The position numbers and the translations under genes were made by a program. 64,000 nucleotides of DNA, taken from NCBI RefSeq assembly GCF_014696315.1, contig NZ_JACJPX010000021.1:1-64000 (forward strand). The letters run 5' to 3'. Source of the stretch: Calothrix membranacea FACHB-236. GTDB lineage: Bacteria > Cyanobacteriota > Cyanobacteriia > Cyanobacteriales > Nostocaceae. Of the stretch, positions 37,874-51,283 are shown piece after piece (the stretch's first letter is position 1; every line of letters begins with the position of its first letter). The notes under the pieces are model-generated. The model did no database searches, was not told the origin of the DNA, and saw only the letters and a program-made list of their open reading frames with translations.

Positions 37874-38665
37874 TTACACCATAGATTTAGCTTTAGCACC
37901 CATAACTTGTTTTGCGATCGCATTTATTGTTTCAGTCCAAGGATGATTGGGATACTGTAAACTGAAAATGCCACTACTGCCTAAATTAAACATCTCTTCA
38001 CTCACAGGTAAAATTCCAGCTACAGGGGTGCCGTAGGTATTTTGTACTTTTTGCCGTAACTCATTAAAATTTAAAGATGGTAGTGCTTTGTTAATTACTA
38101 GCAGCATTTTTGGTACTTCTAATTTCTTTGCAACATCAACTGCTACTGCTGTTCCTTGGTAATCTTGTTTATCTGGGCGAAGAATCAACACCAAAACATC
38201 AGACATAATAATTGACAGCAAAGTTTCTTCGTTAATACCAGGGTGAGTATCAATTAATAGATAATCTAGTTTTAAACGCTTAACTAGATGATGTAAACCA
38301 TCATTTAGCAAACGTGCGTCATAACCTTCGCGTAAAATCCGAGAAATATCGCTCATCTTAATACTAGAAGGCATAAGATAAATACTTCCCTGACGGCCAA
38401 ATAATGATGGTTTTTGTTTGAGAATAGAACTCACATCATAAACTGCATCTTCAATCGCACAACGTCCCCATAAATAATCATTCAGGGTATAGCGAATTCG
38501 TTCTTCTTCTAACCCAAACAAAACATGAATACCAGGAGATTGAATATCAGTATCAACAACTCCCACCCGCTTTCCAGAACGAGCAATTAAAGTAGCTAGA
38601 TTACTTGTAACATTCGATTTACCAGTTCCGCCACGGAATGAATGAACAGAAATTATTTCAGACAC
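37874..38665 (-). CDS. MinD/ParA-like ATPase
   Basis: 263 residues. The deviant Walker A HSFRGGTGKSNVTSNLA contains the signature lysine, VDTDIQSPG is the A' motif, and LLIDTHPGINEE the Walker B region. It lacks the C-terminal amphipathic helix typical of MinD, so it is a relative rather than the cell-division protein. It starts with GTG after a GAGG site and lies 88 bases after the CXXCH/HAMP gene on the same strand. Pairing with a membrane sensor suggests spatial organisation or signalling. Confidence 0.8.
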   Translation of the reverse strand: MSEIISVHSFRGGTGKSNVTSNLATLIARSGKRVGVVDTDIQSPGIHVLFGLEEERIRYTLNDYLWGRCAIEDAVYDVSSILKQKPSLFGRQGSIYLMPSSIKMSDISRILREGYDARLLNDGLHHLVKRLKLDYLLIDTHPGINEETLLSIIMSDVLVLILRPDKQDYQGTAVAVDVAKKLEVPKMLLVINKALPSLNFNELRQKVQNTYGTPVAGILPVSEEMFNLGSSGIFSLQYPNHPWTETINAIAKQVMGAKAKSMV

Positions 38666-38753
38666 GATAAATCCTCAATGGTAATAGGTAATTGGTAATA
38701 GGTAATTGGTAATTGCTAACAGATATTTCTTCTCTGCTTTCTTTGTTCCCTAA

Positions 38754-39815
38754 CTAACTCGCCGTATTGCGTTTATTTCTCATCATTCTTGCTTCCTCTT
38801 GTAATTGTTGGAATGATTCTGATTCAGCAATTTCTGCAACTTGACGCGCACGTCTTGTTTCATCAATTTCAATTCTGAGTTTTTGTAATTGCTGCGTCAT
38901 TTGTTGTTCACGAGCATAAATTTCATGCATCATGCGTTGAAAAACTCTCCCCATCTGTCCTAATTCATCATTGCGTTTAACGATGGGTGTGAGCTTTTGG
39001 CGGTCAAATTCTTCCGCTTCTTCAGAACTAATTTGAGCCATAGTCATTTTCTGCGCTAATTGTGCCATTGGTTTGAGGGGTTGTAGCACATTGCGTTTCA
39101 GTAAATAATTAATTAATAAAATTACTACAGCGAAGATACCAATAAATAAGCTAATGAATAATATAAAAGCACGGTTAGCATCATCAAATACCTTTTTAGC
39201 AGGAAGATAAATGATTTGAGTACCTAGGACTTTATTGAGTTCCCATCCATAGCCATTTTCGGAACCGTAACTTAAAACATGACTTCTTGGCGCAGCTTCC
39301 GGTGTACTATGGCAGCGTAAACAAGTGGGGTTTTTAACCACAAAAGGGCGAGCGCTATAGAACAGTTTTTCTTCAAAAGAATCGCGAAAACCTGAAATAT
39401 TTTTCAGTTCTGGTTCGTTTCGAAATCGTTCAATAACCTGCATCTCAAATGTATCAGCCTTATCCCTCATATTGGTGGGATTAAGATTGGCATCTTTATA
39501 AAAGTAATCTTTATATTCTGGATTTTTCCGCAGAGTTTCAAACACTTCTCTAACTGCATAACTGGGAATCGTCTCCGGGACAAAGGTCGATTGAGTTTCC
39601 ACCATCGGTAACAGCAATGGGCTAATTTTTGTGTTTGTGAAGTTTCTGATAGAGTCCATCGTCTCAGCCAGAATTTGGCTACGGTAACCAATTTCGGCTT
39701 CTGCCTTCTGTTCTAGTGCATGAGATAAAGTAAAACCACTGACTGCGATCGCGCAGAGGAAAACCAGCGATAGAAGAAAGGTAAATTTGGTTGCCAATTT
39801 AAATCTATTTAACAT
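38754..39815 (-). CDS. Tll0287-like (DUF3365) membrane sensor with c-type haem motif and HAMP
   Basis: 353 residues. An N-terminal membrane span (about 12-32) is followed by a periplasmic DUF3365/Tll0287-like domain containing CLRCH (Cys165, Cys168, His169), a covalent haem-attachment motif. A second span (about 217-237), a HAMP domain (LKPMAQLAQKMTMAQ...) and a C-terminal coiled coil complete it. There is no kinase or cyclase output, so it must signal through a partner, possibly the MinD-like ATPase downstream. AGAGGAAA precedes the ATG. Confidence 0.8.
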   Translation of the reverse strand: MLNRFKLATKFTFLLSLVFLCAIAVSGFTLSHALEQKAEAEIGYRSQILAETMDSIRNFTNTKISPLLLPMVETQSTFVPETIPSYAVREVFETLRKNPEYKDYFYKDANLNPTNMRDKADTFEMQVIERFRNEPELKNISGFRDSFEEKLFYSARPFVVKNPTCLRCHSTPEAAPRSHVLSYGSENGYGWELNKVLGTQIIYLPAKKVFDDANRAFILFISLFIGIFAVVILLINYLLKRNVLQPLKPMAQLAQKMTMAQISSEEAEEFDRQKLTPIVKRNDELGQMGRVFQRMMHEIYAREQQMTQQLQKLRIEIDETRRARQVAEIAESESFQQLQEEARMMRNKRNTAS

Positions 39816-40411: not shown

Positions 40412-40627
40412 ATGTCTGACAACATTCAACCCGTAGAATTATCTAACGAAGAACTCGATAACGTTGCTGGTGGTTTAGTTGAGGTTACCCAGGTGGCTGC
40501 AGTTGAAACCAACTTTGAAGCTGTTAATTCATTTGCAGTTGCTGGTAAAGGTTTCGCTGCTACAGGCGGTACTGCAATTAATGATGAGACTAAACAAATT
40601 GCTTTCCGACGCGACTTTGTTCAATAG
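40412..40627 (+). CDS. double-glycine-leader secreted peptide precursor, copy 1
   Basis: 71 residues. The leader MSDNIQPVELSNEELDNVAGG (21) fits the LSxEELxxVAGG consensus cut by C39 peptidases after Gly-Gly. The predicted 50-residue core starts LVEVTQ and ends with TAINDETKQIAFRRDFVQ. No cysteine, so no disulfide or lanthionine. AAGGAT lies 10 bases before the ATG. It is the first and most diverged of three tandem paralogues, and the exporter genes follow 2.7-8 kb downstream on the same strand. Bacteriocin-like or signalling peptide; activity unknown. Confidence 0.85.
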   Translation: MSDNIQPVELSNEELDNVAGGLVEVTQVAAVETNFEAVNSFAVAGKGFAATGGTAINDETKQIAFRRDFVQ

Positions 40628-40677
40628 TAACGTCATAAGTTGAATTTTATAGCAAACATCAGGGTTGCATCTTTGCG

Positions 40678-40761
40678 GGATGAGTTGAGATGTTTGCAAT
40701 ATACGCCAGGAAACTAATTCATCCCATCAATTAGCAACCAGCGAACCTCTGGATTAGGTTC
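40678..40761 (+). repeat. conserved tandem hairpins between precursor copies 1 and 2
   Basis: gggatgagtt (40678-40687) pairs with aattcatccc (40716-40725, one G-T pair), and gaacct (40743-40748) with aggttc (40756-40761). The same pair, in almost identical sequence, lies between copies 2 and 3 at 41062-41150. Conservation of noncoding sequence between paralogues may only reflect recent duplication, but the paired bases are intact in both copies. Confidence 0.6.
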
Positions 40762-40816
40762 ACCACGAATCTTTATTACCTAACCAATATCACACAATTC
40801 ACAAGGATCAAACATC

Positions 40817-41035
40817 ATGTCTGAAAACATTCAACAAGCTCAAGAATTATCTACTGAAGAACTCGATAACGTTGCTGGTGGTTTAATCGACGTGACCCAA
40901 TTTACAGATGTCGATACCAATTTTGAAGCTGTGAAATCCGGTGCTGCTGCTGCTCCTGGTCTAGCAGTTACAGATGGTACCGCCATCAATGATGAAACCA
41001 GACAAATCGCTTTCCGCCGCGACTTGGTTATCTAA
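40817..41035 (+). CDS. double-glycine-leader secreted peptide precursor, copy 2
   Basis: 72 residues: a 22-residue leader ending ELSTEELDNVAGG and a 50-residue core. The core begins LIDVTQFTDVDTNFEAV, contains the Ala-rich SGAAAAPGLAV, and ends NDETRQIAFRRDLVI. It differs from copy 3 by one core residue (Asp for Ala after QFT) and one leader residue (Glu/Asp at position 3). AAGGAT lies before the ATG. No cysteine. The two Arg near the C-terminus are shared by all three copies and may be functionally important. Confidence 0.85.
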   Translation: MSENIQQAQELSTEELDNVAGGLIDVTQFTDVDTNFEAVKSGAAAAPGLAVTDGTAINDETRQIAFRRDLVI

Positions 41036-41061
41036 TAGCTTCACCAGCTTTGCACCTTTAC

Positions 41062-41150
41062 GGGATGAGTTGAGATGTTTACCCAGGCTCAAGATACGCC
41101 AGGAAACTAATTCATCCCATCAACTAACAGCGAACCTCTGGAGTAGGTTC
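41062..41150 (+). repeat. conserved tandem hairpins between precursor copies 2 and 3
   Basis: gggatgagtt (41062-41071) with aattcatccc (41109-41118), then gaacct (41132-41137) with aggttc (41145-41150). The surrounding 130 bases upstream of copies 2 and 3 are nearly the same, showing that the duplicated unit of about 390 bases includes the leader region. Confidence 0.6.
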
Positions 41151-41205
41151 ACCGCGAATCTTTATTACCTAACCAATATCACACAATTAACAAGGATCAA
41201 ACATC

Positions 41206-41424
41206 ATGTCTGACAACATTCAACAAGCTCAAGAATTATCTACTGAAGAACTCGATAACGTTGCTGGTGGTTTAATCGACGTGACCCAATTTACAGCTGT
41301 CGATACTAATTTTGAAGCTGTGAAATCCGGTGCTGCTGCTGCTCCTGGTCTAGCAGTTACAGATGGTACCGCGATTAATGATGAAACCAGACAAATCGCT
41401 TTCCGCCGCGACTTGGTTATCTAA
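41206..41424 (+). CDS. double-glycine-leader secreted peptide precursor, copy 3
   Basis: 72 residues, nearly identical to copy 2. Core LIDVTQFTAVDTNFEAV through NDETRQIAFRRDLVI. The near-identity at DNA level points to very recent tandem duplication. Followed by a 12-bp inverted repeat (41458-41513) that may reduce read-through into the downstream genes. Confidence 0.85.
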   Translation: MSDNIQQAQELSTEELDNVAGGLIDVTQFTAVDTNFEAVKSGAAAAPGLAVTDGTAINDETRQIAFRRDLVI

Positions 41425-41457
41425 TAGTTTCATAAGTTGAACTATTTAATTAGTTCT

Positions 41458-41513
41458 CAAGAAAGGGGTGCTTGATTAACAAAATATCTAGTCCTAACTT
41501 GACCCCTTTCTTG
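41458..41513 (+). terminator. attenuator-like inverted repeat inside the island
   Basis: caagaaaggggt (41458-41469) pairs perfectly with acccctttcttg (41502-41513) around a 32-base loop. No T run follows, so it may be an RNA-stability or processing element rather than a full terminator; such elements often raise peptide mRNA above exporter mRNA. Confidence 0.4.
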
Positions 41514-41550
41514 AAAATATAACTCGAATACGGTACGCAAAGGAGCTGCT

Positions 41551-41850
41551 ATGTCCAGTGACGAAATGACTCCAGCCGATAGCGAGTTTAGCGAATTGTC
41601 TGATGAGGAGTTAGATGAGGTCGCTGGTGGTCTAAGTGCAAGTATTTCAGCTGCACATTACCGTCAGACGAACTTATTGTTTGGTCAAATCAGCAAATTT
41701 GGTAGACAAGGTTCTAATCAGACTAATTTTGAAATGCAGAATATTGAATCTGCTGCCTTTCAAATCGTTATTACAGATGCAACAACTGAAGATCTTAAAG
41801 TTCTTGGCGAGTTGTTTGGAGATGCATCTGCACTCGATGGTTCTGCATAA
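41551..41850 (+). CDS. double-glycine-leader peptide precursor, divergent type
   Basis: 99 residues. The leader ends SELSDEELDEVAGG (27 residues), close to the leaders of copies 1-3, but the 72-residue core is different: LSASISAAHYRQTNLLFGQ, SNQTNFEMQNIESAAFQIVITDATTEDLKVLGELFG. A short TNFE word is the only visible link to the other cores. No cysteine. AAGGAG lies 10 bases before the ATG. It was probably captured by the same export machinery through its leader. Confidence 0.8.
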   Translation: MSSDEMTPADSEFSELSDEELDEVAGGLSASISAAHYRQTNLLFGQISKFGRQGSNQTNFEMQNIESAAFQIVITDATTEDLKVLGELFGDASALDGSA

Positions 41851-42044
41851 ACTGACATATTCGACCATTCTGAATAACTGTTAGTAACTTAATCAAGCCA
41901 GTGGTGCGAAGTGTAAGTAAATGGAGTTTTTAAAATCAATGAATCGCAGTTGAAATAAACTTACTCAACTGGTTTCTGAAATTTTTCTGTTCTAGTGTCA
42001 ATCAATGTTGAATTGCAAATTAATCACAAGGAGAAACAATCACA

Positions 42045-42269
42045 ATGGAAAACGAACACCAAATGGAATCACAAGAATTATCAGTTGAACAATTGTCAAC
42101 TATTGCAGGTGGAATTGCTGTAGGTGAACCTTATCCTGGTCAGTATTCTACAACCGATATTTATCATGATGTGTCTGAAGTAGTTGCAAAAAAACTAGAG
42201 AATATCAAATTCCCTGGGTGGAATTACAAAAATTCTGAGTCTTACACTAGCGAATCATCTGAAGGATGA
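42045..42269 (+). CDS. double-glycine-leader peptide precursor, second type, copy 1
   Basis: 74 residues: leader MENEHQMESQELSVEQLSTIAGG (23) and a 51-residue core beginning IAVGEPYPGQY. Shared with the copy at 42628: the (I/V)AxGExYxG start, AKxLExxxFPxW in the middle and a Ser-rich tail. No cysteine. AAGGAG precedes the ATG. The TGA stop lies inside the stem of a terminator-like hairpin. Confidence 0.82.
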   Translation: MENEHQMESQELSVEQLSTIAGGIAVGEPYPGQYSTTDIYHDVSEVVAKKLENIKFPGWNYKNSESYTSESSEG

Positions 42270-42326
42270 AGTGTAAAGGATAAAGTATGATTTTCATCCT
42301 TTATTTTTCATACTTCATCCTTTTTA
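42262..42326 (+). terminator. terminator-like hairpin overlapping the precursor stop codon
   Basis: aaggatgaagt (42262-42272) pairs with acttcatcctt (42312-42322); an inner aaaggataaa/tttatccttt-like pairing adds to it, and a T run follows (42321-42325). It probably ends most transcripts here, before the duplicated gene fragment. The ggatgaagta word also occurs as a repeat elsewhere in the window. Confidence 0.55.
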
Positions 42327-42413
42327 GTTAATTGCGTGATGGGGAGATTGATCGGTAGTTATTTCTGTACTCCCCATTTCTCTCCCGTTAGCAGAACAGA
42401 AGAAATTTAAATT

Positions 42414-42525
42414 ATGACAGAAGTTCTACTGAAGGAACTCACAAATAGTGATATTGACTGGATATGAGCAACTGGTCACAGAGAAGAAATTACTGCTGGC
42501 ACGATTCTCATTTACCAAGGAGCTT
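42414..42525 (+). pseudogene. truncated duplicate of the cyclic-nucleotide-fold gene start
   Basis: From about 42375 the sequence repeats that around 43040-43190: the same leader (tctcccgttagcagaacaga), the same ATG and the first 17 codons (MTEVLLKELTNSDIDWI). A TGA at 42465-42467 replaces TTA of the intact gene. Similarity continues past the stop to about 42523 (ACGATTCTCAT..CCAAGGAGC) and then ends. It is a relic of tandem duplication of precursor plus start of the next gene. Confidence 0.85.
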
Positions 42526-42627
42526 CACTCAACTGCTTTCTAAAACTGTTCTGGCGTGTTTTATTGTCTGGCCTTGATGAAATTAACGAATTCACTAACA
42601 AATAAAATCAAAAAGAGAAAAATTCCA

Positions 42628-42852
42628 ATGGAAAACGAAAATCACAATGAATCACAAGAGCTATCAATTCAAGAACTAGCAAGTATTTCGGGTGGCGTTG
42701 CCATAGGTGAGGTTTATCAAGGTGGGCCTCCAGACAATAAATATAACAATCTATATGATGCGATCGCCAAACATCTCGAAGGTAAGAACTTTCCTTATTG
42801 GAGTAACGATAAACCAAAAAGTGTTGAGCCTGACGGGGGAATAGGAAACTAA
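42628..42852 (+). CDS. double-glycine-leader peptide precursor, second type, copy 2
   Basis: 74 residues from the ATG at 42628 (the open frame extends 24 codons upstream, but alignment with the copy at 42045 and an AAAGAGAAA site favour this start). Leader MENENHNESQELSIQELASISGG, core beginning VAIGEVYQGG with AKHLEGKNFPYW. Cores of the two copies share roughly 40 percent of positions, so this duplication is older than that of copies 2 and 3 of the first type. No cysteine. Confidence 0.82.
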   Translation: MENENHNESQELSIQELASISGGVAIGEVYQGGPPDNKYNNLYDAIAKHLEGKNFPYWSNDKPKSVEPDGGIGN

Positions 42853-43079
42853 AAACCCTGTTCCTGACCTTGAAGAAGTTTGCAATTCAAGGCCGACCTG
42901 TACGAGTTAATAAGTGATGGGGAGATTGTTGATTATTATCCAATTCTCCAAAAGAAGACAACAGATGCAATCATCTCAAAACCAGATTTAATCTGACTTT
43001 CTCGATTACAAATTACGAATTGGTATTATTTTCTACTACCCATTTCTCTCCCGTTAGCAGAACAGAAGGAATTTAAATT

Positions 43080-44177
43080 ATGACAGAAGTTCTACTGAAA
43101 GAACTCACAAATAGTGATATTGACTGGATATTAGCAACGGGTCGGAGAGAAGAAATTACTGCCGGCACGATTCTCATCCGCCAAGGGGCACCGGTTGATG
43201 CACTCTATATTTTACTCGATGGTGCATTGTCCGTTTCTGTTGCTCAAGCTGACGATAACCCCATTGGTAGGGCGTTTGCAGCCTTAGAAGGTGGTGAATT
43301 GTCAGGACGGGAGATTACAAGACTGACAAATGGGGAAGTGGTGGGAGAAATGCCTTTCTTAACATCCTACCAGTCTGCAACGACGATTAAAGCTGCGAAA
43401 AAGTCTCTAGTGCTGATGGTTCCGCAGCAGGAATTGGTGAAAAAACTCCAAGAAGATATTACCTTTGCGGCTCATTTTTATCGTGCGATCGCAGTTTTAC
43501 TGGCTCACCGTTTAGAGCAAATTGTTAGCCAAATTGGACAAAGCACGATTGTACTCTTTCAGCCGCAAATCCGCGAGATTTTGTTTACATTTGCGGAATT
43601 AAGCGATAGCGATATTGGTTGGATGATTGCAGCTGGCGAAGCTAAAAGAATTCCCGCTGGAGAAGTTTTATTCCAAGCCGGACGACCTGTTGATGCTTTT
43701 TATATTTTATTAGATGGCAAAATGGTGGCTTCCACTGCCGAAGATGCTAGCAACCCGCTCACCCGCGCCTTTTCTCACTTAGAAAACACAGAAACCATCG
43801 AAACAGAATTTGCCAGATTATCGCGTGGTGACATGGTAGGCGAAACCCCCTTTGTGGAAGCCAGTCCCCCACCGATGACAATTCGCGCCATTGAAGATGC
43901 GATCGTGCTTTCCATTCCTCGTTGGCGATTGGCTGCAAAACTACTACACGATGTAGGTTTTGCTGCCCGATTTTATCGAGTGTTAGCGATATTGCTAGCA
44001 GACAAACAGCAAGGAATTATCAATCGCCTGGGTTACGGCAGAATTACATATAGTTCCGGTAAATCTTTAGACAGTAGTCTTACTTATGAAGATGAACTAA
44101 GTTCCGGCTTTTTAGCCCAAGTAACCCTAGCAGGAACGCGGTTTGATTGGATGTTGAAGCAGTTGAAGGCGAATTGA
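43080..44177 (+). CDS. protein with two degenerate cyclic-nucleotide-binding-like domains
   Basis: 365 residues, two repeats of a Crp-like beta-roll (about 5-150 and 172-315). Each starts with a LTNSDIDWIxAxGxxxxIxAGxxLxxxGxPVDAxYILLDG pattern and has a GE(M/T)PF turn, but the arginine that grips the cyclic phosphate in true binding sites is absent: the stretch reads LTSYQSATTIKA and VEASPPPMTIRA. There is no helix-turn-helix. It lies between precursors and the HlyD gene on one strand, so it probably serves the export system, perhaps as an assembly or sensing part. The C-terminal 50 residues are unlike either repeat. Confidence 0.75.
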   Translation: MTEVLLKELTNSDIDWILATGRREEITAGTILIRQGAPVDALYILLDGALSVSVAQADDNPIGRAFAALEGGELSGREITRLTNGEVVGEMPFLTSYQSATTIKAAKKSLVLMVPQQELVKKLQEDITFAAHFYRAIAVLLAHRLEQIVSQIGQSTIVLFQPQIREILFTFAELSDSDIGWMIAAGEAKRIPAGEVLFQAGRPVDAFYILLDGKMVASTAEDASNPLTRAFSHLENTETIETEFARLSRGDMVGETPFVEASPPPMTIRAIEDAIVLSIPRWRLAAKLLHDVGFAARFYRVLAILLADKQQGIINRLGYGRITYSSGKSLDSSLTYEDELSSGFLAQVTLAGTRFDWMLKQLKAN

Positions 44178-44329
44178 GCAGGGGGGCAGCAGGGGGAGAT
44201 GAGGTAGATGAGGGGGATGAGGGGGATGAGGGAGAAATTACTATTACCCATTACCCATTACCCTTTCCCCATGCCCAATGCCCCATGCCCCATGCCCCAT
44301 GCCCTATTTATATATTTATTGGAGTCACT
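44178..44329. repeat. short tandem repeats between the beta-roll gene and the HlyD gene
   Basis: gatgagggg nonamers (44195-44235), ttacccattaccc heptamers (44238-44262) and ccccatg heptamers (44266-44305) fill the gap. They keep the frame open upstream of the HlyD ATG. Confidence 0.8.
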
Positions 44330-45772
44330 ATGGTTACGGCTCAAAAAAACAATATATTTCGTAAAGAAGCACTGGATCGTTTATCTTCCCCGGAACGACT
44401 GGATCAATTGATGCAGGTGGTGCAGCCAAAGAAGTGGATTCCTTTGGCGGCGTTGGGTTCTTTGGTGGCGGTGGGAGTGGCTTGGAGTGTTGTTGGTCGG
44501 ATTCCTATTACTGTGAATGGACAAGGGGTAGTGGTTTTCCCTAGTAAGGTTGTGCCTTTTCAGTCTCCGAGTTCTGGGCAGATTTTGAATTTGTTTGTGC
44601 GTCCAGGCGATCGCGTCAAGAAAGGACAGGTGATTGCAACTATCGACCAAACAGAATTGCAAGAAAAGCTGGATATGGCACGGGCCAAGCTGTTGCAGCT
44701 GCAAGAACAAGACCGCAATGCAAATTCGCTGCAAGCGCAACGCACGGTTTTAGACAAGGGTGCGACCGGGCAACAGCGTCAAGCACTGTTACAAAGTTTA
44801 GAAACTACTAAATCCGTAACGCCAATTCTCCGGGACAAGGGTTTAGAGTCGATTCGCCAAGAGAGGCGGACTTTAGAGCAACAGTTGGAAACAACGCGCA
44901 AGCTTGTCCCAACTTTTCAAGAACGGTTTGAATTGCGGCAACAATTACGCCGTGAAGGTGCTGTATCTAGTGATACAGTGTTGCAAGCGGAACAGGAATT
45001 TCTCAATAGCAAAAGCCGGATTGATGAAATTCAATCGCAACTGAAACAACTGGATGTGAAAGAAGCCGATGCCCAAAGGCAATATTTAGCTAACTTAAAC
45101 GCCACCAAAGAACTGCAAGCCCAGTTAGCAACATTAGATACTAAATTAGCTTCCCAAGCCGAACAAGATTTAGCGATCGCCACCAATCGGAAAAAAGAAA
45201 TTCAAGAAACTGAAAGAGCGATCGCGCAATTAAAATCGCAATTAAAAGATAGAAACAAAGTTATTAGCAGCTTCAACGGTCAAATCTTAGAACTGACAGT
45301 TGTTCCCGGACAAAGCTTAGAAGAAGGCGCACGTATCGGCACAATCCAAGCTCAAGATTCCACTGATAAGTTAGTGGGAGTCGCATTCTTCCCAGTTAGT
45401 GAAGGTAAAAAGATTCAAAAAGGTATGGAGTTGCAAATTACTCCCTCTACTGTGAAGCGCGAACGCTTTGGGGGAATCGTCGCCAAGGTAACCAGTGTTT
45501 CGTCTTTTCCCGTCACCAAAGAAAGTGCATCCAGCGTTGTCGGTGGTGCAGAAATTTTGCAAGGCTTAACCTCCCAAGGGCCGCAAATTCAAGTCTTTGC
45601 CGAACTTGAGCCAGATTCCGCAACTAACAGCGGTTTTCGCTGGTCATCCTCAAAGGGGCCAGAAGCCAAAGTCACCTCAGGAACCACCACCTCAGTCCGC
45701 GTCAAAGTTGACGAACAATCACCCATTTCCTTTGTCTTCCCCATACTCCGTTCTTGGAGTGGAATGTATTGA
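44330..45772 (+). CDS. HlyD-family membrane fusion protein (NHLM-type secretion adaptor)
   Basis: 480 residues from the ATG at 44330, which has GGAG 5 bases upstream; earlier codons are translated repeats. A membrane span (IPLAALGSLVAVGVAWSVVG, about 36-55) is followed by a biotinyl-lipoyl half (ILNLFVRPGDRVKKGQVIATID), a long coiled-coil hairpin (about 110-310), the second lipoyl half (GQILELTVVPGQSLEEGARIGTI) and a beta-barrel. It links the inner-membrane ABC exporter to an outer-membrane TolC-like channel, whose gene is not in this window. It is directly followed by the C39 exporter gene. Confidence 0.9.
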   Translation: MVTAQKNNIFRKEALDRLSSPERLDQLMQVVQPKKWIPLAALGSLVAVGVAWSVVGRIPITVNGQGVVVFPSKVVPFQSPSSGQILNLFVRPGDRVKKGQVIATIDQTELQEKLDMARAKLLQLQEQDRNANSLQAQRTVLDKGATGQQRQALLQSLETTKSVTPILRDKGLESIRQERRTLEQQLETTRKLVPTFQERFELRQQLRREGAVSSDTVLQAEQEFLNSKSRIDEIQSQLKQLDVKEADAQRQYLANLNATKELQAQLATLDTKLASQAEQDLAIATNRKKEIQETERAIAQLKSQLKDRNKVISSFNGQILELTVVPGQSLEEGARIGTIQAQDSTDKLVGVAFFPVSEGKKIQKGMELQITPSTVKRERFGGIVAKVTSVSSFPVTKESASSVVGGAEILQGLTSQGPQIQVFAELEPDSATNSGFRWSSSKGPEAKVTSGTTTSVRVKVDEQSPISFVFPILRSWSGMY

Positions 45773-45955
45773 TTGGGCATGGGGCATGGGGCATTGGGCA
45801 TTGGGTAATGAGTAATGAGTAATGAGTAATGAGTAATTGGTCATAGTAATTTCTCCCTCATCCCCCTCATCCCCCTCATCCCCCTCATCTCCCCCTGCAC
45901 CCTGCCCCCTGCCCCCTGCCTTTCCTCCCCGACAAATCCTTACTGAACACAAATC
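45773..45955. repeat. short tandem repeats between HlyD and C39 exporter genes
   Basis: gggcatg heptamers (45776-45805), taatgag heptamers (45806-45838), ccctcatcc nonamers (45853-45893) and ccctgcc heptamers (45897-45920). The exporter ATG follows without a clear ribosome binding site. Confidence 0.8.
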
Positions 45956-48205
45956 ATGTGGCGAACTCTTCAATCCCAGCTTGGGCGTAGATTAAAAAAA
46001 ATTCGGCGGCTGATTAGCCCTCCCGATCGCCGCCGTCGCACTCCTACTCTGTTACAAATGGAAGCGGTGGAATGTGGTGCCGCTGCATTAGGAATTATTC
46101 TTGGTTATTACAATCGTATTGTTCCTTTGGCAGAACTCCGTCTAGCTTGCGGTGTGTCGCGGGATGGGAGTAAAGCGTCAAATATTCTCAGTGCAGCCCG
46201 GATCTATGGGATGCAAGCGAAAGGCTTTAAGGTCGATTTGGATGGATTACGTAAACTAGAATGTCCTTACATTGTCTTTTGGAATTTCAACCATTTTCTA
46301 GTTGTTGAGGGATTTAGCAAAGATAAGATTTATCTAAACGATCCTGCTACTGGCCCCCGTAGAGTTTCTCCCCAAGAATTTGATCAGTCTTTTACTGGCG
46401 TAGTTCTAGTTCTGGAACCAAGTGCAGAATTCCGCCCAGGTGGACGCAAGCCCAGCCTCACGGTAGCCTTATGGGACAGGTTGCAGAGTTCGTTGGGTGC
46501 TTTGGTTTACTGTGTGATCGCTGGATTATTATTAGTAATTCCAGGTTTAGCTATTCCCGCTTTTTCGCAAACCTTTGTTGATCATGTCTTAATTGAAGGC
46601 AGAAATGATTGGTTGCGTCCCTTAATTCTCGGCATTATTTTAACCGCTATCTTAAATGGTTTTTTAACTTTACTTCAGTTACAATTTTTACGCCGTTTAA
46701 AAATTAAGCTGGCGGTGGGGATGTCCAGTCGCTTTTTGTGGCATATTCTCCGTCTTCCAGTGAGTTTTTACGATCAGCGGTTTGCGGGGGAAATTAGTAA
46801 CCGCGTTCACCTCAACGATAGTTTGGCGAACCTGCTTTCTGGCCGATTAGCTACCACAGTAATTTCCATTTTCACTGTCGTCTTTTATGGCGCAGTGATG
46901 CTGCAATATGATGTTGTTCTTACTTTAATTGGTATTGCCTTTGTAATCGTCAATATTACCGTTTGGCGTTGGGTTTCTCGGCAACGCGTCGATGCCAATA
47001 TGCGATTAATGCAAGAACAAGGCAAAGTTAGCGGCGTAGCAATTTCCGGCTTGCAAAGTATGGAAACCTTGAAGGCATCAGGGCTAGAGTCAGAATTCTT
47101 TTCCCGGTGGGCTGGTTATTATGCCAAATCTATCAACGCCCGTCAGGAAATGGATACTACTAATCAAACTGTCGGTGTTTTACCATCATTTCTCACCTCC
47201 ATTACCTCAATGCTGTTGCTGGTGGTGGGAGGCTTGCGGGTAATGGATGGCGTACTCAGTATCGGAATGTTGATTGCCTTTCAAGCCTTAATGCAAAGAT
47301 TCCTCGAACCTGTGAATAGTTTGGTGAGTCTGGCTGGTGAACTTCAAGAAATGGAAGGTAACCTCAGCCGCCTCGATGATGTTTTACATAATGCGATCGA
47401 TCCGGCGGTGAGTGAAGAAACACCTCTAGCCACAGCTTATGATGTACCGAAGGCAAATGTGCGGTTGCAAGGTTATGTGGAACTCCGTAACATTACATTT
47501 GGTTATAATCGCTCTGCTGCTCCCTTAATTGAAAATCTTAATCTTTCACTCAAACCAGGGCAACGTGTGGCGTTAGTTGGCGGTAGTGGTTCTGGTAAAT
47601 CAACCGTCGCCAAGCTGGTATGTGGATTATATGAACCTTGGGCTGGGGAGATTTTATTTGATGGGAAATCGAGAAAAGACATTCCCCGTTCAATTATTAA
47701 TCATTCACTGGCGCTGGTGGAACAAGATATCTCGATGTTTGCTGGTAGTGTGCGCGATAATCTCACCCTTTGGGATTCGACGGTACCTTTTAGTAATTTA
47801 GTTCGTGCTTGTAAGGATGCAGAGATTCAGGATGTAGTGCTTTCCATGCCTGGTGGTTACAATGCTGACTTGGCAGAAGGGGCAACTAACTTAAGTGGTG
47901 GACAGCGTCAGAGGTTAGAAATTGCCCGCGCTTTGGTGAATAATCCGGCAATTTTGGTGATGGATGAAGCTACAAGTGCGCTGGATTCTGAGGCGGAGAA
48001 GTTAATCGATCGCAAGTTGCGGGAACGGGGATGTACTTGTATTATTGTTGCCCACCGCTTAAGTACAATTCGCGATTGCGATGAGATTATTGTGTTTGAT
48101 CGGGGGAAGGTGGTGCAACGGGGTACTCATGAACAATTGCAGCAGGTGGAAGGGAAGTATTTGGAGTTGATTCGCAGCGAAGGCGAAGCGGTTGAGGAGA
48201 CGTAA
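45956..48205 (+). CDS. C39-peptidase ABC exporter (NHLM_micro_ABC1 type)
   Basis: 749 residues. The N-terminal C39 cysteine protease has QMEAVECGAAALG (Cys40), His113 in NFNHFLVVEG and Asp129 in LNDP, all catalytic residues intact. A six-helix membrane domain (about 165-460) and an ATPase domain follow: Walker A VGGSGSGKST (about 541-550), LSGGQRQR (about 646), Walker B ILVMDEATSALDS. It cuts the leader after Gly-Gly while pumping the peptide out. It lies between HlyD and the second ABC gene, and is the direct maturation partner for the six precursors. Confidence 0.93.
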   Translation: MWRTLQSQLGRRLKKIRRLISPPDRRRRTPTLLQMEAVECGAAALGIILGYYNRIVPLAELRLACGVSRDGSKASNILSAARIYGMQAKGFKVDLDGLRKLECPYIVFWNFNHFLVVEGFSKDKIYLNDPATGPRRVSPQEFDQSFTGVVLVLEPSAEFRPGGRKPSLTVALWDRLQSSLGALVYCVIAGLLLVIPGLAIPAFSQTFVDHVLIEGRNDWLRPLILGIILTAILNGFLTLLQLQFLRRLKIKLAVGMSSRFLWHILRLPVSFYDQRFAGEISNRVHLNDSLANLLSGRLATTVISIFTVVFYGAVMLQYDVVLTLIGIAFVIVNITVWRWVSRQRVDANMRLMQEQGKVSGVAISGLQSMETLKASGLESEFFSRWAGYYAKSINARQEMDTTNQTVGVLPSFLTSITSMLLLVVGGLRVMDGVLSIGMLIAFQALMQRFLEPVNSLVSLAGELQEMEGNLSRLDDVLHNAIDPAVSEETPLATAYDVPKANVRLQGYVELRNITFGYNRSAAPLIENLNLSLKPGQRVALVGGSGSGKSTVAKLVCGLYEPWAGEILFDGKSRKDIPRSIINHSLALVEQDISMFAGSVRDNLTLWDSTVPFSNLVRACKDAEIQDVVLSMPGGYNADLAEGATNLSGGQRQRLEIARALVNNPAILVMDEATSALDSEAEKLIDRKLRERGCTCIIVAHRLSTIRDCDEIIVFDRGKVVQRGTHEQLQQVEGKYLELIRSEGEAVEET

Positions 48206-48244
48206 GTTTTTATAGATGGTTTTGGGGATGAATTTCTTTTTGTC

Positions 48245-48330
48245 TCACGCAGAGACACAGAGACACAGAGAGAAAGATTAAGTTTAGATTCTCTTGCGTT
48301 CTTCTCTGCGACTCTGCGACTCTGCGTGAA
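48245..48330. repeat. inverted repeat cacgcagag ... ctctgcgtg
   Basis: cacgcagag (48246-48254) and ctctgcgtg (48320-48328) end an 83-base segment with agacacagag and actctgcg tandem repeats inside. A common interspersed repeat of filamentous cyanobacteria, here placed between two exporter genes. Confidence 0.75.
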
Positions 48331-48361
48331 ATTTTCATAGTTGTAGGAAGCAGGAATAATT

Positions 48362-51283
48362 ATGTTGGATCAAGTTCGCATTGTTAGCTTGCAGGGAGAA
48401 TATTATCAAATCAAGGGTAATGAGCCGATTATTCTGGATGATCCAGAGACTATTTGGGTTGTAAAATCTGGTTCATTGGCGGTGTTTGCGATTCCGTTGA
48501 AGGAAGGGGTGGCGGAAGGTACTCGCCGTTATTTGTTTACTACTCGCACCAGACAGGCAATGTTTGGTATTCCTAGCGATTCGCAACCCTTACCTTACCA
48601 GTTGGTGGCGGTATCGATTGAGGAAACTGAACTGTTGAAGGTTTCGGTGAAGGATTTTCGGGAATTTCTTGCTGATGGTAATGGCGAAGCTATAACTTTA
48701 ATTGAGGGTTGGATTGAGCAACTAGGATTGGCGTTATCTGTAATTACTCCCCCTGGATTACCTTTTCAAGAGGAAGGGGTACGATATTTTTCCCTGAGTA
48801 ATGGGCAAATTTTTCAACCACAGCGAGAGTTGGTATCTTGGGTACAAATCCAAAGTGGTTATGCAACTTGGATGGGTTTTGAGGAACTGTTGATTACAGC
48901 CCGATCGCAATTTTTGCCGTTGAGTGCAGATATGTGGTTCCAAGCTGAGGATATGGTTGAACTTGAATCTCTCAGTACCTCTGATATTCACGATCCTGAG
49001 ACTCTGCTGGCGGGGATGGCGCAACTGCACATATATGTTTTGGGAAGCCTGTATCTTTTAGAACAGGAGGAAACTGAGGCCGAAACACAACGCTTTCAAG
49101 AACGCCAACACCTCAATTCTCAGGTGATGGAGGAAACCCTGAGTGAGTTAGCTTTTTTACTTAAGCCTGCTGATGGTGGTAGTTTTGAGGTAGGAATTGT
49201 TAACGATCCCCAGCAAGCTTTGTTGATTGCGGCGGGTGCGGTGGCGCGAACTTTGGGTGTAACAATTCGTCCGCCGGCGAAGTCGGAAGATATGAAACGG
49301 ATTCAAGATCCTCTACAAGCGATCGCCCGGGCTTCTCGTTTGCGGATGCGAACGATTTCTTTACAAGGTAAGTGGTGGAAGAAAGATAGCGGTGCGATGC
49401 TAGCTTACACCATAGAAGATAATCACCCAGTAGCGTTGTTACCTGTATCGGATACCCGCTATGAAATGTTCGATCCCATCAGGCGATCGCGCACACTAAT
49501 TAATAGTAGAACTGCGGCTAGACTGGCGTTGACTGGTTACACTTTTTACCGCCCTTTACCAGATAAAGTCCTCAGTACCCTGGACTTGTTAAAGTTTGCG
49601 CTGGAAGGACATTACAAGGAATTGATGGTTGTCGTGATTGCGGGTGTGGCGACGACTTTATTAGGGATGATTACGCCCCAAGCTACCGCTATCTTAATTG
49701 ATAGTGCCATTCCCGATGCCGCTCGCGGTTTATTAGTTCAAATTGCTTTAGGATTGTTGGCTACAGCCTTTGGTAGCACGCTGTTTCAACTAGCCCAAGG
49801 TTTCGCCATTATGCGAGTAGAAACCTTTGCTGATGCTACTACCCAAGCGGCAGTTTGGGATCGGCTGTTGAATTTGAAAGCTTCGTTTTTCCGTAAGTTC
49901 TCAATTGGGGATTTAAATTCACGGGTAAGTGCGGTGAGTCAAATCCGCCAAAGGCTGAGTAGTACGGTTTTAAGAAGTATATTTACCAGCTTATTTGCAT
50001 TATTAAATTTAGGATTGCTGTTTTATTACAACGGTTCCCTAGCGTTAATTGCTTTAGTGGTAGCGTTGGTGAATATTGGTGTGACTTTATTTTCCGGTAT
50101 TTCCACCCTGCGGAAAGTTCGCCCCTTACTAGAATTACAAGGGCAACTTTTAGGGGTGATGGTGCAGTTAATTAACGGTGTTACTAAACTGCGAGTTGCT
50201 GGTGCTGAAGCCCGCGCCTTTGCTTTTTGGGGTAAACAATATAGTCAGCAAATTAAATGGATGCTGAGTACTCAAAATATTGAGGATATTGTGGCGGTAA
50301 TTAATAAAATTCTGCCAGCCTTAACCACAGCTTGTCTGTTTTGGTTTGCTACTAGTTTAATTCAGGAATCCCAATCAGGTGGTTTATCTACGGGTGTATT
50401 CTTAGCCTTTAATGCGGCATTTGGAACATTTATTGGTGGTGCTACCAGCCTCAGCAGTACAGTTGTAGATGTCCTGCAAATCGTGCCATTGTGGGAACGC
50501 GCACAGCCGATTTTGGCAGCTAAACCGGAAGTAGACACAGAAAAAGCTGATCCTGGGCGACTTTCTGGGCGGGTAGTAGTGGATCATGTGATTTTCCGCT
50601 ATCGCGATGACGGGCCTTTAACCTTAGATGATGTGAGTATCCACGCCGAACCGGGAGAATTTATCGCCTTTGTGGGTGCTTCTGGAAGTGGAAAATCCAC
50701 ACTGTTCCGCTTATTACTGGGGTTTGATGCACCGGAATCAGGGACAATTTACTTTGATGGGCAAGATTTAGCGGGGTTAGATGTCCATGCAGTCCGCCGA
50801 CAATTAGGCGTAGTGATGCAAAATAGCCGCTTAACATCTGCCTCTCTCTTTGAAAATATTGCCAGTGGTGCGACAATCACAATGGATGAAGCCTGGGAAG
50901 CAGCACGGATGGCTGGCTTTGCTGAAGATATTGAATCCATGCCTATGGGAATGCACACCGTCATTAGTGAAGGTGGTAGCAACCTTTCGGGTGGACAACG
51001 CCAGCGTTTATTAATTGCGCGATCGCTCGTTTTAAAACCGAAAATCCTGTTATTTGACGAAGCCACCAGCGCTTTAGATAACCGCACCCAAGCAATTGTT
51101 AGCCAAAGCTTAGAACGGTTAAAAGTGACCAGAATTGCGATCGCTCACCGTCTCAGCACCATTCGCAACGCTGATCGTATCTATGTATTCCAAAATGGTC
51201 GTGTTGTTCAAGAAGGCAGTTTTCATCAACTCGCCAATCAACCAGGACTCTTTGCTCAACTCATGGCGAGACAGAAGCTTTAG
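48362..51283 (+). CDS. second ABC exporter ATPase (NHLM_micro_ABC2 type)
   Basis: 973 residues. The N-terminal region contains a beta-roll resembling a cyclic-nucleotide-binding fold (about 10-110) and further helical sequence to about 400 with no C39 protease. A membrane domain (about 415-690) and an ATPase follow: Walker A VGASGSGKST (about 770), LSGGQRQR (about 878), Walker B ILLFDEATSALDN. The length and order match the ATP-binding partner that accompanies C39 exporters in NHLM clusters. It probably forms a heterodimer with the 749-residue protein. Starts with ATG, 156 bases after it. Confidence 0.9.
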   Translation: MLDQVRIVSLQGEYYQIKGNEPIILDDPETIWVVKSGSLAVFAIPLKEGVAEGTRRYLFTTRTRQAMFGIPSDSQPLPYQLVAVSIEETELLKVSVKDFREFLADGNGEAITLIEGWIEQLGLALSVITPPGLPFQEEGVRYFSLSNGQIFQPQRELVSWVQIQSGYATWMGFEELLITARSQFLPLSADMWFQAEDMVELESLSTSDIHDPETLLAGMAQLHIYVLGSLYLLEQEETEAETQRFQERQHLNSQVMEETLSELAFLLKPADGGSFEVGIVNDPQQALLIAAGAVARTLGVTIRPPAKSEDMKRIQDPLQAIARASRLRMRTISLQGKWWKKDSGAMLAYTIEDNHPVALLPVSDTRYEMFDPIRRSRTLINSRTAARLALTGYTFYRPLPDKVLSTLDLLKFALEGHYKELMVVVIAGVATTLLGMITPQATAILIDSAIPDAARGLLVQIALGLLATAFGSTLFQLAQGFAIMRVETFADATTQAAVWDRLLNLKASFFRKFSIGDLNSRVSAVSQIRQRLSSTVLRSIFTSLFALLNLGLLFYYNGSLALIALVVALVNIGVTLFSGISTLRKVRPLLELQGQLLGVMVQLINGVTKLRVAGAEARAFAFWGKQYSQQIKWMLSTQNIEDIVAVINKILPALTTACLFWFATSLIQESQSGGLSTGVFLAFNAAFGTFIGGATSLSSTVVDVLQIVPLWERAQPILAAKPEVDTEKADPGRLSGRVVVDHVIFRYRDDGPLTLDDVSIHAEPGEFIAFVGASGSGKSTLFRLLLGFDAPESGTIYFDGQDLAGLDVHAVRRQLGVVMQNSRLTSASLFENIASGATITMDEAWEAARMAGFAEDIESMPMGMHTVISEGGSNLSGGQRQRLLIARSLVLKPKILLFDEATSALDNRTQAIVSQSLERLKVTRIAIAHRLSTIRNADRIYVFQNGRVVQEGSFHQLANQPGLFAQLMARQKL

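Follow-up and report, generated by a model that had tools for sequence, protein, structure and literature searches.

The 64,000-nucleotide stretch of DNA analyzed here (the window; positions 1 to 64,000 of contig NZ_JACJPX010000021.1) comes from the 8.8-Mb genome of the cyanobacterium Calothrix membranacea FACHB-236 and carries a peptide-export island, in which six small precursor genes with double-glycine (GG) leaders precede a gene for a protein with two cyclic-nucleotide-binding domains (TIGR03896) and the genes of a three-part exporter (Table 1). An initial annotation had placed the island at 40412..51283, and all of the genes that it named were confirmed on the + strand; it had missed a divergent pair on the - strand (37874-39815), encoding a membrane receptor and a ParA/MinD-like ATPase, with which the conserved unit extends left to 37874. 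We lean slightly towards reading the locus as a receptor-controlled peptide secretion system with allelic products, that is, sensor-controlled export of strain-specific social peptides.

Table 1. Features of the island and its divergent receptor-ATPase pair, in window positions.
Feature	Position	Strand	Score or remark
ParA/MinD-like ATPase, 263 aa, Walker A FRGGTGKS	37874..38665	-	PF10609 73.9 bits, cut-off 27.1
Heme-Cache (Tll0287-like)-HAMP receptor, two transmembrane-like segments, CxxCH	38754..39815	-	PF11845 130.2 bits, PF00672 29.4 bits
42-aa C-terminal tail of receptor, candidate ATPase-docking element	38769..38894	-	common to other receptor types; co-occurs with ATPase
Precursor 1, type A (class A2), 71 aa	40412..40627	+	NF038167 41.5 bits
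Core-coding block differing between strains	40475..41760	+	left edge, last base of precursor 1 GG codons; right edge inside precursor 4
Precursor 2, type A (class A2), 72 aa	40817..41035	+	NF038167 37.1 bits
Precursor 3, type A (class A2), 72 aa, near copy of precursor 2	41206..41424	+	NF038167 38.2 bits
Precursor 4, type B, 99 aa, core C-terminal end conserved	41551..41850	+	NF038167 49.7 bits; 15-row alignment
Precursor 5, type C, 74 aa	42045..42269	+	GG leader; orthologues found
Remnant copy of TIGR03896 gene 5' end and its upstream region, TGA-broken	42351..42589	+	197/244 aligned positions identical to 43019-43255
Precursor 6, type C, 74 aa	42628..42852	+	GG leader
TIGR03896 protein, two cyclic-nucleotide-binding domains	43080..44177	+	341.8 bits, cut-off 161.05; two PF00027 stretches
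HlyD-type adaptor, TIGR03794	44327..45772	+	412.9 bits, cut-off 156.2
C39 peptidase-ABC exporter, TIGR03796, catalytic residues present	45956..48205	+	1174.8 bits, cut-off 853.3
Second ABC exporter, TIGR03797, without peptidase	48362..51283	+	1050.3 bits, cut-off 709.4

A leader pattern matched exactly six open reading frames (ORFs), all within 40412-42852 and none elsewhere in the window, compared with a mean of 0.05 matches (maximum 1) in 40 Markov-1 resampled windows; six GG leaders are thus far above chance expectation, and the six one-strand precursors stand as first described. They do not form a single set, as had been assumed, but three kinds: A (three copies, strain-variable), B (one copy, with a conserved C-terminal end) and C (two copies, by duplication). 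Precursors 1-4 exceed the curated cut-off of 32 bits for NF038167, the NCBIfam family of CTB bacteriocins, while precursors 5 and 6 fall below it (17.8 and 14.3 bits) and below that of CCRG-2 as well (22.7 and 18.0 against 24 bits). The NHLP leader family TIGR03793 was not matched (12.4-13.4 bits for precursors 1-4 against a cut-off of 50.9, with no score listed for 5 and 6). The start codon of precursor 6 is the ATG at 42628 (ORF open from 42556), and the remnant between precursors 5 and 6 is debris left when a tandem duplication gave rise to the second type-C precursor. Inspection by eye shows long similar stretches in the spacers that follow precursors 1 and 2 (40628-41205), with an inverted repeat (GGGATGAGTT...AATTCATCCC) as a possible RNA hairpin.

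Cys is absent from all six window cores; in the orthologue set described below, Cys counts were 0 in 112 A-type cores plus the core labeled A6, 8 in 21 B cores and 1 in 22 C cores. No modification enzyme gene was found among the 17 further window proteins that were scanned (a subset of the window's ORFs), and the products are probably unmodified, as had been supposed at first. A lanthipeptide matured by a distant LanM is disfavored by the Cys-free window cores.

The exporter proteins pass the cut-offs of TIGR03794, TIGR03796 and TIGR03797, which upholds the proposal of an NHLM-type exporter with matching GG precursors. The catalytic Gln, Cys, His and Asp of the C39 domain are all present, again as proposed, and both ABC proteins have Walker A, signature, Walker B and H-loop motifs. 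Cleavage after Gly-Gly and export are the established mechanism of these exporter families. HlyD most likely starts near 44327 (ORF open from 44147). What had been described as a two-beta-roll protein is the TIGR03896 protein, which is 100% identical to that of Nostoc linckia FACHB-104 and 99% identical to that of N. carneum NIES-2107, placing the genome with those of Nostoc kind. In its first cyclic-nucleotide domain, the commonest form of the window type is YQS[AS]TT, versus RP.[AS]TT in some of the other clade. The Arg that contacts the phosphate in CRP may thus be lost in the window type, and cyclic nucleotides may therefore not bind.

The receptor has the sCache_heme architecture, a Tll0287 domain with CxxCH, transmembrane segments and HAMP; CxxCH is present in 42/42 aligned homologues, and a Pfam scan of the receptor found no output domain. 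The ATPase also exceeds the PF13614 and PF01656 cut-offs, and its kin in the PDB are MinD/FlhG/FleN. It lacks the signature Lys of the deviant Walker A motif, and Arg occupies that position ([FY]RGGTGKS) in 116/116 homologous ORFs, some of them from overlapping loci. Twenty-two loci, the window included, were treated as close orthologues (20 of 217 family genomes at E <= 1e-190, plus L053 and L054; L, G and C numbers denote loci, genomes and contigs); L192, truncated at a contig end and without an A gene, was left out of the counts on 21. The ATPase-receptor pair is present in all 21, with the order and strands of ATPase-receptor / precursors-TIGR03896-HlyD-ABC1-ABC2 identical throughout. An NtcA site (GTAN8TAC) was found in the divergent intergenic region of 1/21 loci and is therefore not conserved.

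In a wider set, the best 80 of 94 TIGR03896 loci from named genomes, the ATPase was found in 56 and a receptor in 57 (41 and 42 of the 52 with full flanks). A second clade of these loci has a dCache-HAMP receptor, with the ATPase co-directional and upstream of TIGR03896, often together with DUF7005 (28/80 loci) and an 868-aa protein without a Pfam match (22/80); L102:8743-9915 and L102:5204-7810 (the latter with no Pfam or NCBIfam match) exemplify these recurrent dCache-type neighbors. Across a sample of 60 family genomes, the ATPase was present in 29/29 with TIGR03896 versus 5/31 without it. Members of the ATPase family at L145, L147, L151 and L158 adjoin CHASE2-type proteins (Pfam-tested for L147), a small HTH-like protein and large proteins, with no peptide exporters; by eye, others lie beside phage-tail or contractile-injection-like genes (L132, L158) or glycogen-type enzyme genes (L167, L168).

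Heme-Cache and dCache receptors differ in their sensor domains but end after HAMP in the same C-terminal sequence, roughly IEID..k.a..VAEI.E.e.F..LQ....lR. This tail was found at or near the C-terminus of sCache_heme-HAMP, dCache-HAMP, sCache_3-HAMP-PAS, CHASE2, PAS and FHA-GAF proteins, and its pattern also in small proteins encoded 10-102 bp from an ATPase gene. Pfam and NCBIfam held no family confined to the window receptor tail (the NCBIfam matches were weak and in the HAMP region), and a second pattern, which was too strict, gave no matches; the tail search was made with a 13-row profile. It matched 36 of the 60 family genomes, including 34/34 of those with the ATPase, and two genomes had the tail only. 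Among 61 tail places in this sample (leaving out a second weak match at G015:C85, 19 bases from the main one), 35 were within 1.5 kb of an ATPase match, where about 0.02 would be expected by chance, and 48 were within 5 kb. In 292 cyanobacterial genomes, the same draw being used for both searches (tail at E <= 1e-8, ATPase at E <= 1e-60), the tail was found in 35 and the ATPase in 39: 35 genomes had both, none the tail only, four the ATPase only and 253 neither. Outside the family, 12/39 tail places, in 9/25 genomes, were within 5 kb of an ATPase match.

Twenty-eight tail proteins (22 tail ORFs from 20 outside-family regions plus L061, L147, L167, L169, L175 and L178) were scanned with Pfam. 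Twenty-four matched a sensory or HAMP domain (Cache, Tll0287, CHASE2, PAS, GAF-FHA or HAMP), L221 being counted among them at 24.3 bits, below its cut-off of 25, and three (L208, L175 and L178) had no Pfam match. The pattern starts 218 residues before the end in L061 and 79 in L167 (CHASE2), the tail of L147 (CHASE2) lies about 114 residues before the end, and elsewhere the tail is at or close to the protein end. The L061 locus carries a TIGR03896 exporter cluster, with no ATPase in the examined stretch. We propose, from these sequence patterns, that tail-bearing receptors signal through the ParA/MinD-like ATPase. The available text of a study on such ATPases states that their partners usually make contact via a charged, disordered N-terminus, and that many of the ATPases are orphans (PMC10241942); by analogy, the tail may take the role of this contact element.

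The precursors differ between strains while the machinery stays nearly constant. The precursor order in the close orthologues is A(n), B, C; in a few loci a B or C call is missing. Core classes, cut at 45% core identity by single linkage, gave four array types: A1 with a single A3 in 12 loci, A2 in four (window, L185, L188 and L189), A4 in two and A5 in three; the entry 'A6' (L182) was a B-type peptide wrongly assigned to A, and one L188 precursor with masked letters was unclassed. That each locus has one multi-copy class was not used as evidence, because tandem duplication explains such purity. The window and its congeners L180, L181, L182 and L183 form one machinery clade (SH-aLRT 100) and carry types A2, A5, A1, A4 and A1, respectively, so that five congeneric strains hold four different core arrays. 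Identity to the window in the four is 94.0-99.7% for the exporter and TIGR03896 proteins, 93.9-99.2% for the ATPase and 90.7-99.2% for the receptor, and 0.20-0.24 between the window A cores and theirs. Nine of the ten strain pairs differ in array type, and in all nine the flanking homology (87-92%) stops at a distance of 0-25 bases from where the precursor 1 leader ends, whereas the single same-type pair aligns straight through. In the four comparisons with the window, homology on the left breaks off at 40474 in three and at 40480 in the fourth, and it picks up again within precursor 4, at 41761 or 41776; the window core bases between are uncovered by matches except for 44/150 bases of the first core (a secondary match to L183). 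Of the 8 sister genomes searched in the genus, three others hold TIGR03896 solely as more distant copies.

All of the array types are also found in other genera, with same-type core identities (mean of best) of 0.68-0.71 for A2, 0.85-0.87 for A5, 0.61 for A4 and 0.37-0.53 for A1, at a machinery identity of 0.85-0.89, a pattern that would fit old allelic classes or old exchange alike. The exporter data reject monophyly of the A2, A5 and A4 carriers (p-AU 0.0002, 0.001 and 0.0002), the groups having been picked after the types were known. On the machinery tree the array types require 7 changes versus a minimum of 3, a number as low in 16/200 shuffles, so weak clustering of the types on the tree is possible. 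As controls from the same strains, the peptide of a second TIGR03896 locus is of the same kind in 5/5, and the arrays on contigs C40 and C119 keep 0.95-1.00 core identity between G000 and G003. The two other arrays and the second locus thus do not show the wholesale peptide variation of this locus.

Taken together, the locus could work as follows. The C39 domain would cut the six leaders after Gly-Gly, and the cores would exit via TIGR03796, TIGR03797 and HlyD, a step that the sequence supports well; the released window peptides would then begin with LVEVTQ, LIDVTQ, LSASIS, IAVGEP or VAIGEV. The periplasmic heme-Cache domain may read nitric oxide (NO) or redox state, HAMP would pass the signal to the C-terminal tail, and the tail may contact the neighboring ATPase, which with the cytosolic double cyclic-nucleotide-domain protein would set when or where the exporter works. 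Exported peptides of types A and B would be social products specific to the strain type; swapping the core-coding block would change that type and leave leaders, exporter, receptor and ATPase in place. An NO input is suggested by the sensor properties that the available part of a preprint describes for HAMP-fused sCache_heme proteins (PMC12889525). More broadly, and tentatively, at a little under an even chance, we suggest that unrelated cyanobacterial receptors (heme-Cache, dCache, CHASE2, PAS and FHA-GAF) with a common tail report to one dedicated ParA/MinD-like ATPase, not to a kinase or cyclase, which here would command an allelic self-type (allorecognition-like) export locus; its core blocks would be exchanged at the junction of leader and core and would be shared between genera.

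Several points weigh against sensor control of this kind. Action of the ATPase on the exporter is suggested through guilt by association, and a single Pseudomonas protein in the preprint is the source of the NO role, as far as its available part goes (PMC12889525). Eleven of the 52 full-flank TIGR03896 loci have no nearby ATPase (L059, L061, L063, L064, L066-L068, L077 and L079-L081), and 16 of 57 ATPase loci (of which L123 repeats the window and L139 and L176 overlap; L043/L044/L124 likewise repeat L180/L181/L183) lack the searched receptor, exporter or precursor kinds within 2.5 to 10 kb; the same ATPase family does occur in non-peptide contexts. The co-occurrence of tail and ATPase across the phylum (log10 p = -40) is uncorrected for descent. 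Outside the family, 27/39 tail places are more than 5 kb from an ATPase match or on another contig, so co-occurrence there is mostly not a by-product of linkage. Lastly, the tail-pattern protein L061:76-1659 is a protein kinase (PF00069), and the tail is therefore not confined to proteins without an enzyme domain.

Different explanations can be given for what the peptides do. They may be ordinary unmodified class II-type bacteriocins, the swapped block being a killing-specificity cassette as in other exchangeable bacteriocin regions; the family labels of the precursors, cores that change while the exporter is conserved, and the want of a modification gene among the scanned neighbors all suit this idea. 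It is nevertheless rather unlikely in our judgment, given that no immunity gene was recognized among the island ORFs, the exchanged block included (tiny or unlinked ones could escape), that in classes A1-A5 the average core is acidic (-2.8 to -5.0), and that the literature examined, as far as its available text goes, reports no activity of a CTB peptide. Of the same modest probability is a role as extracellular matrix or surface peptides, like EbfG of Synechococcus elongatus, with types diversified by phage or grazer pressure. The cores are multi-copy, Cys-free and 44-55% G/S/T/N/Q/A in classes A1-A5, and the available text on EbfG describes GG-leader proteins required for biofilm, of which EbfG1-3 form amyloid (PMC9981879); the CTB family was, however, matched in 0/14 control genomes, S. 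elongatus among them.

That the receptor-ATPase pair is a mere neighbor with an unrelated job appears improbable. It would account for ATPase family members beside CHASE2, FHA and other genes without peptide exporters, and for tail and ATPase genes being mostly unlinked outside the family, but less readily for linkage in two arrangements (divergent in the sCache type, co-directional and upstream of TIGR03896 in the dCache type) and for an ATPase in every one of the 29 TIGR03896 genomes. It is very unlikely that the exported peptide is a pheromone detected by the heme-Cache receptor, in a pherotype system. Divergent linkage of receptor and precursors in 21/21 loci and peptide types that differ as in pherotype systems would suit this reading, but the receptor domain carries a CxxCH heme site, and the receptors of L180, L181, L182 and L183 are 98.6, 90.7, 96.9 and 99.2% identical to the window's despite wholly different cores, so that in L180 and L183 at least the receptor hardly tracks peptide type; near-identical receptors with such cores strongly disfavor a peptide receptor. 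Products acting among like strains, in competition or in self-type matrix or adhesion, are favored over a pheromone read by the receptor. Assembly artifacts are scarcely credible, repetitive as the arrays are and even with contigs C40 and C113 of this genome ending close to or inside them, since L181, L182 and L183 lie on contigs of 8.35, 9.01 and 8.48 Mb, the same-type pair aligns through and the array types recur in other genera.

Related genes occur elsewhere in this genome and in others. CTB arrays on contigs C119, C40 and C113 have no exporter in the examined stretches, and no C39 matches were listed on these contigs. Precursor homologues without C39/HlyD neighbors, which the initial annotation had set against export, do therefore exist; they do not refute export, because exporters can act in trans on unlinked precursors. 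Contigs C40 and C113 both end near near-identical CTB genes (L037:1-1072 and L035:134-1117) and may be one locus split by repeats. The second TIGR03896-HlyD locus of this genome (L033, G000:C137:9000-24000) has no ABC genes in the 15 kb examined, and its HlyD gene is followed by a small gene pair that looks toxin-antitoxin-like by eye. At L082 a C39-ABC gene lies some 6 kb downstream of HlyD, and at L058:4288-9111 an RsbR-like protein (RsbRD_N + STAS) and, by eye, stressosome-like genes stand directly upstream of the TIGR03896 locus.

If the proposal is right, it describes a signaling route not previously described in cyanobacteria, in which many 'bacteriocin' clusters have unknown purpose. 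Near-identical loci differing only in their peptide block are natural allele pairs for tests of killing, kin-marking or matrix formation, and the tail-ATPase pairing would predict a direct output for many receptors without a known one and give orphan ParA/MinD ATPases a partner element. Within the open-licence literature, represented mostly by titles and the beginnings of abstracts, there was no report of block exchange at these loci or of the receptor-ATPase pairing. The island as first described is of a known kind, the published 'group V' cyanobacterial layout, with the same gene set of C39-ABC, second ABC, HlyD, bimodular CAP_ED protein and GG precursors (Wang, Fewer and Sivonen, 2011; PMC3140520); unlike the island here, the main text of that paper mentions no ParA, MinD or HAMP, and its Results and Discussion describe no allelic exchange. 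The NHLP/N11P system has the same three-gene exporter, TIGR03794/03796/03797, and conserved leaders with hypervariable cores were noted there too (Haft, Basu and Mitchell, 2010; PMC2887384), whereas the precursors here are of the CTB and not the NHLP type, and the hypervariability section of that paper compares paralogues rather than block exchange between strains. In Nodularia, one CTB operon rises on phosphate starvation, and the available parts of that study report no tested function for CTB peptides (PMC9846622). EbfG of S. elongatus is alike by description, as small exported cyanobacterial proteins with GG leaders (PMC9981879; PMC4997328), and, unlike for the arrays here, the available text of PMC9981879 mentions no allelic exchange. 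With the sCache_heme/DUF3365 sensors, to judge from the available part of that preprint, the receptor has in common the CxxCH Tll0287 domain, transmembrane helices and HAMP, and in place of their kinase, MCP or GGDEF output it has HAMP followed by a conserved tail and an adjacent ATPase gene (PMC12889525). The nearest parallel in pairing a ParA/MinD-like ATPase with a membrane receptor is that of ParC/PpfA with chemotaxis clusters, as described in the available text; compared with those systems, the putative partner element here is a tail at or near the C-terminus instead of a charged N-terminus, it is common to many unrelated receptor types, and the ATPase has Arg at the Walker A signature-Lys position (PMC10241942).

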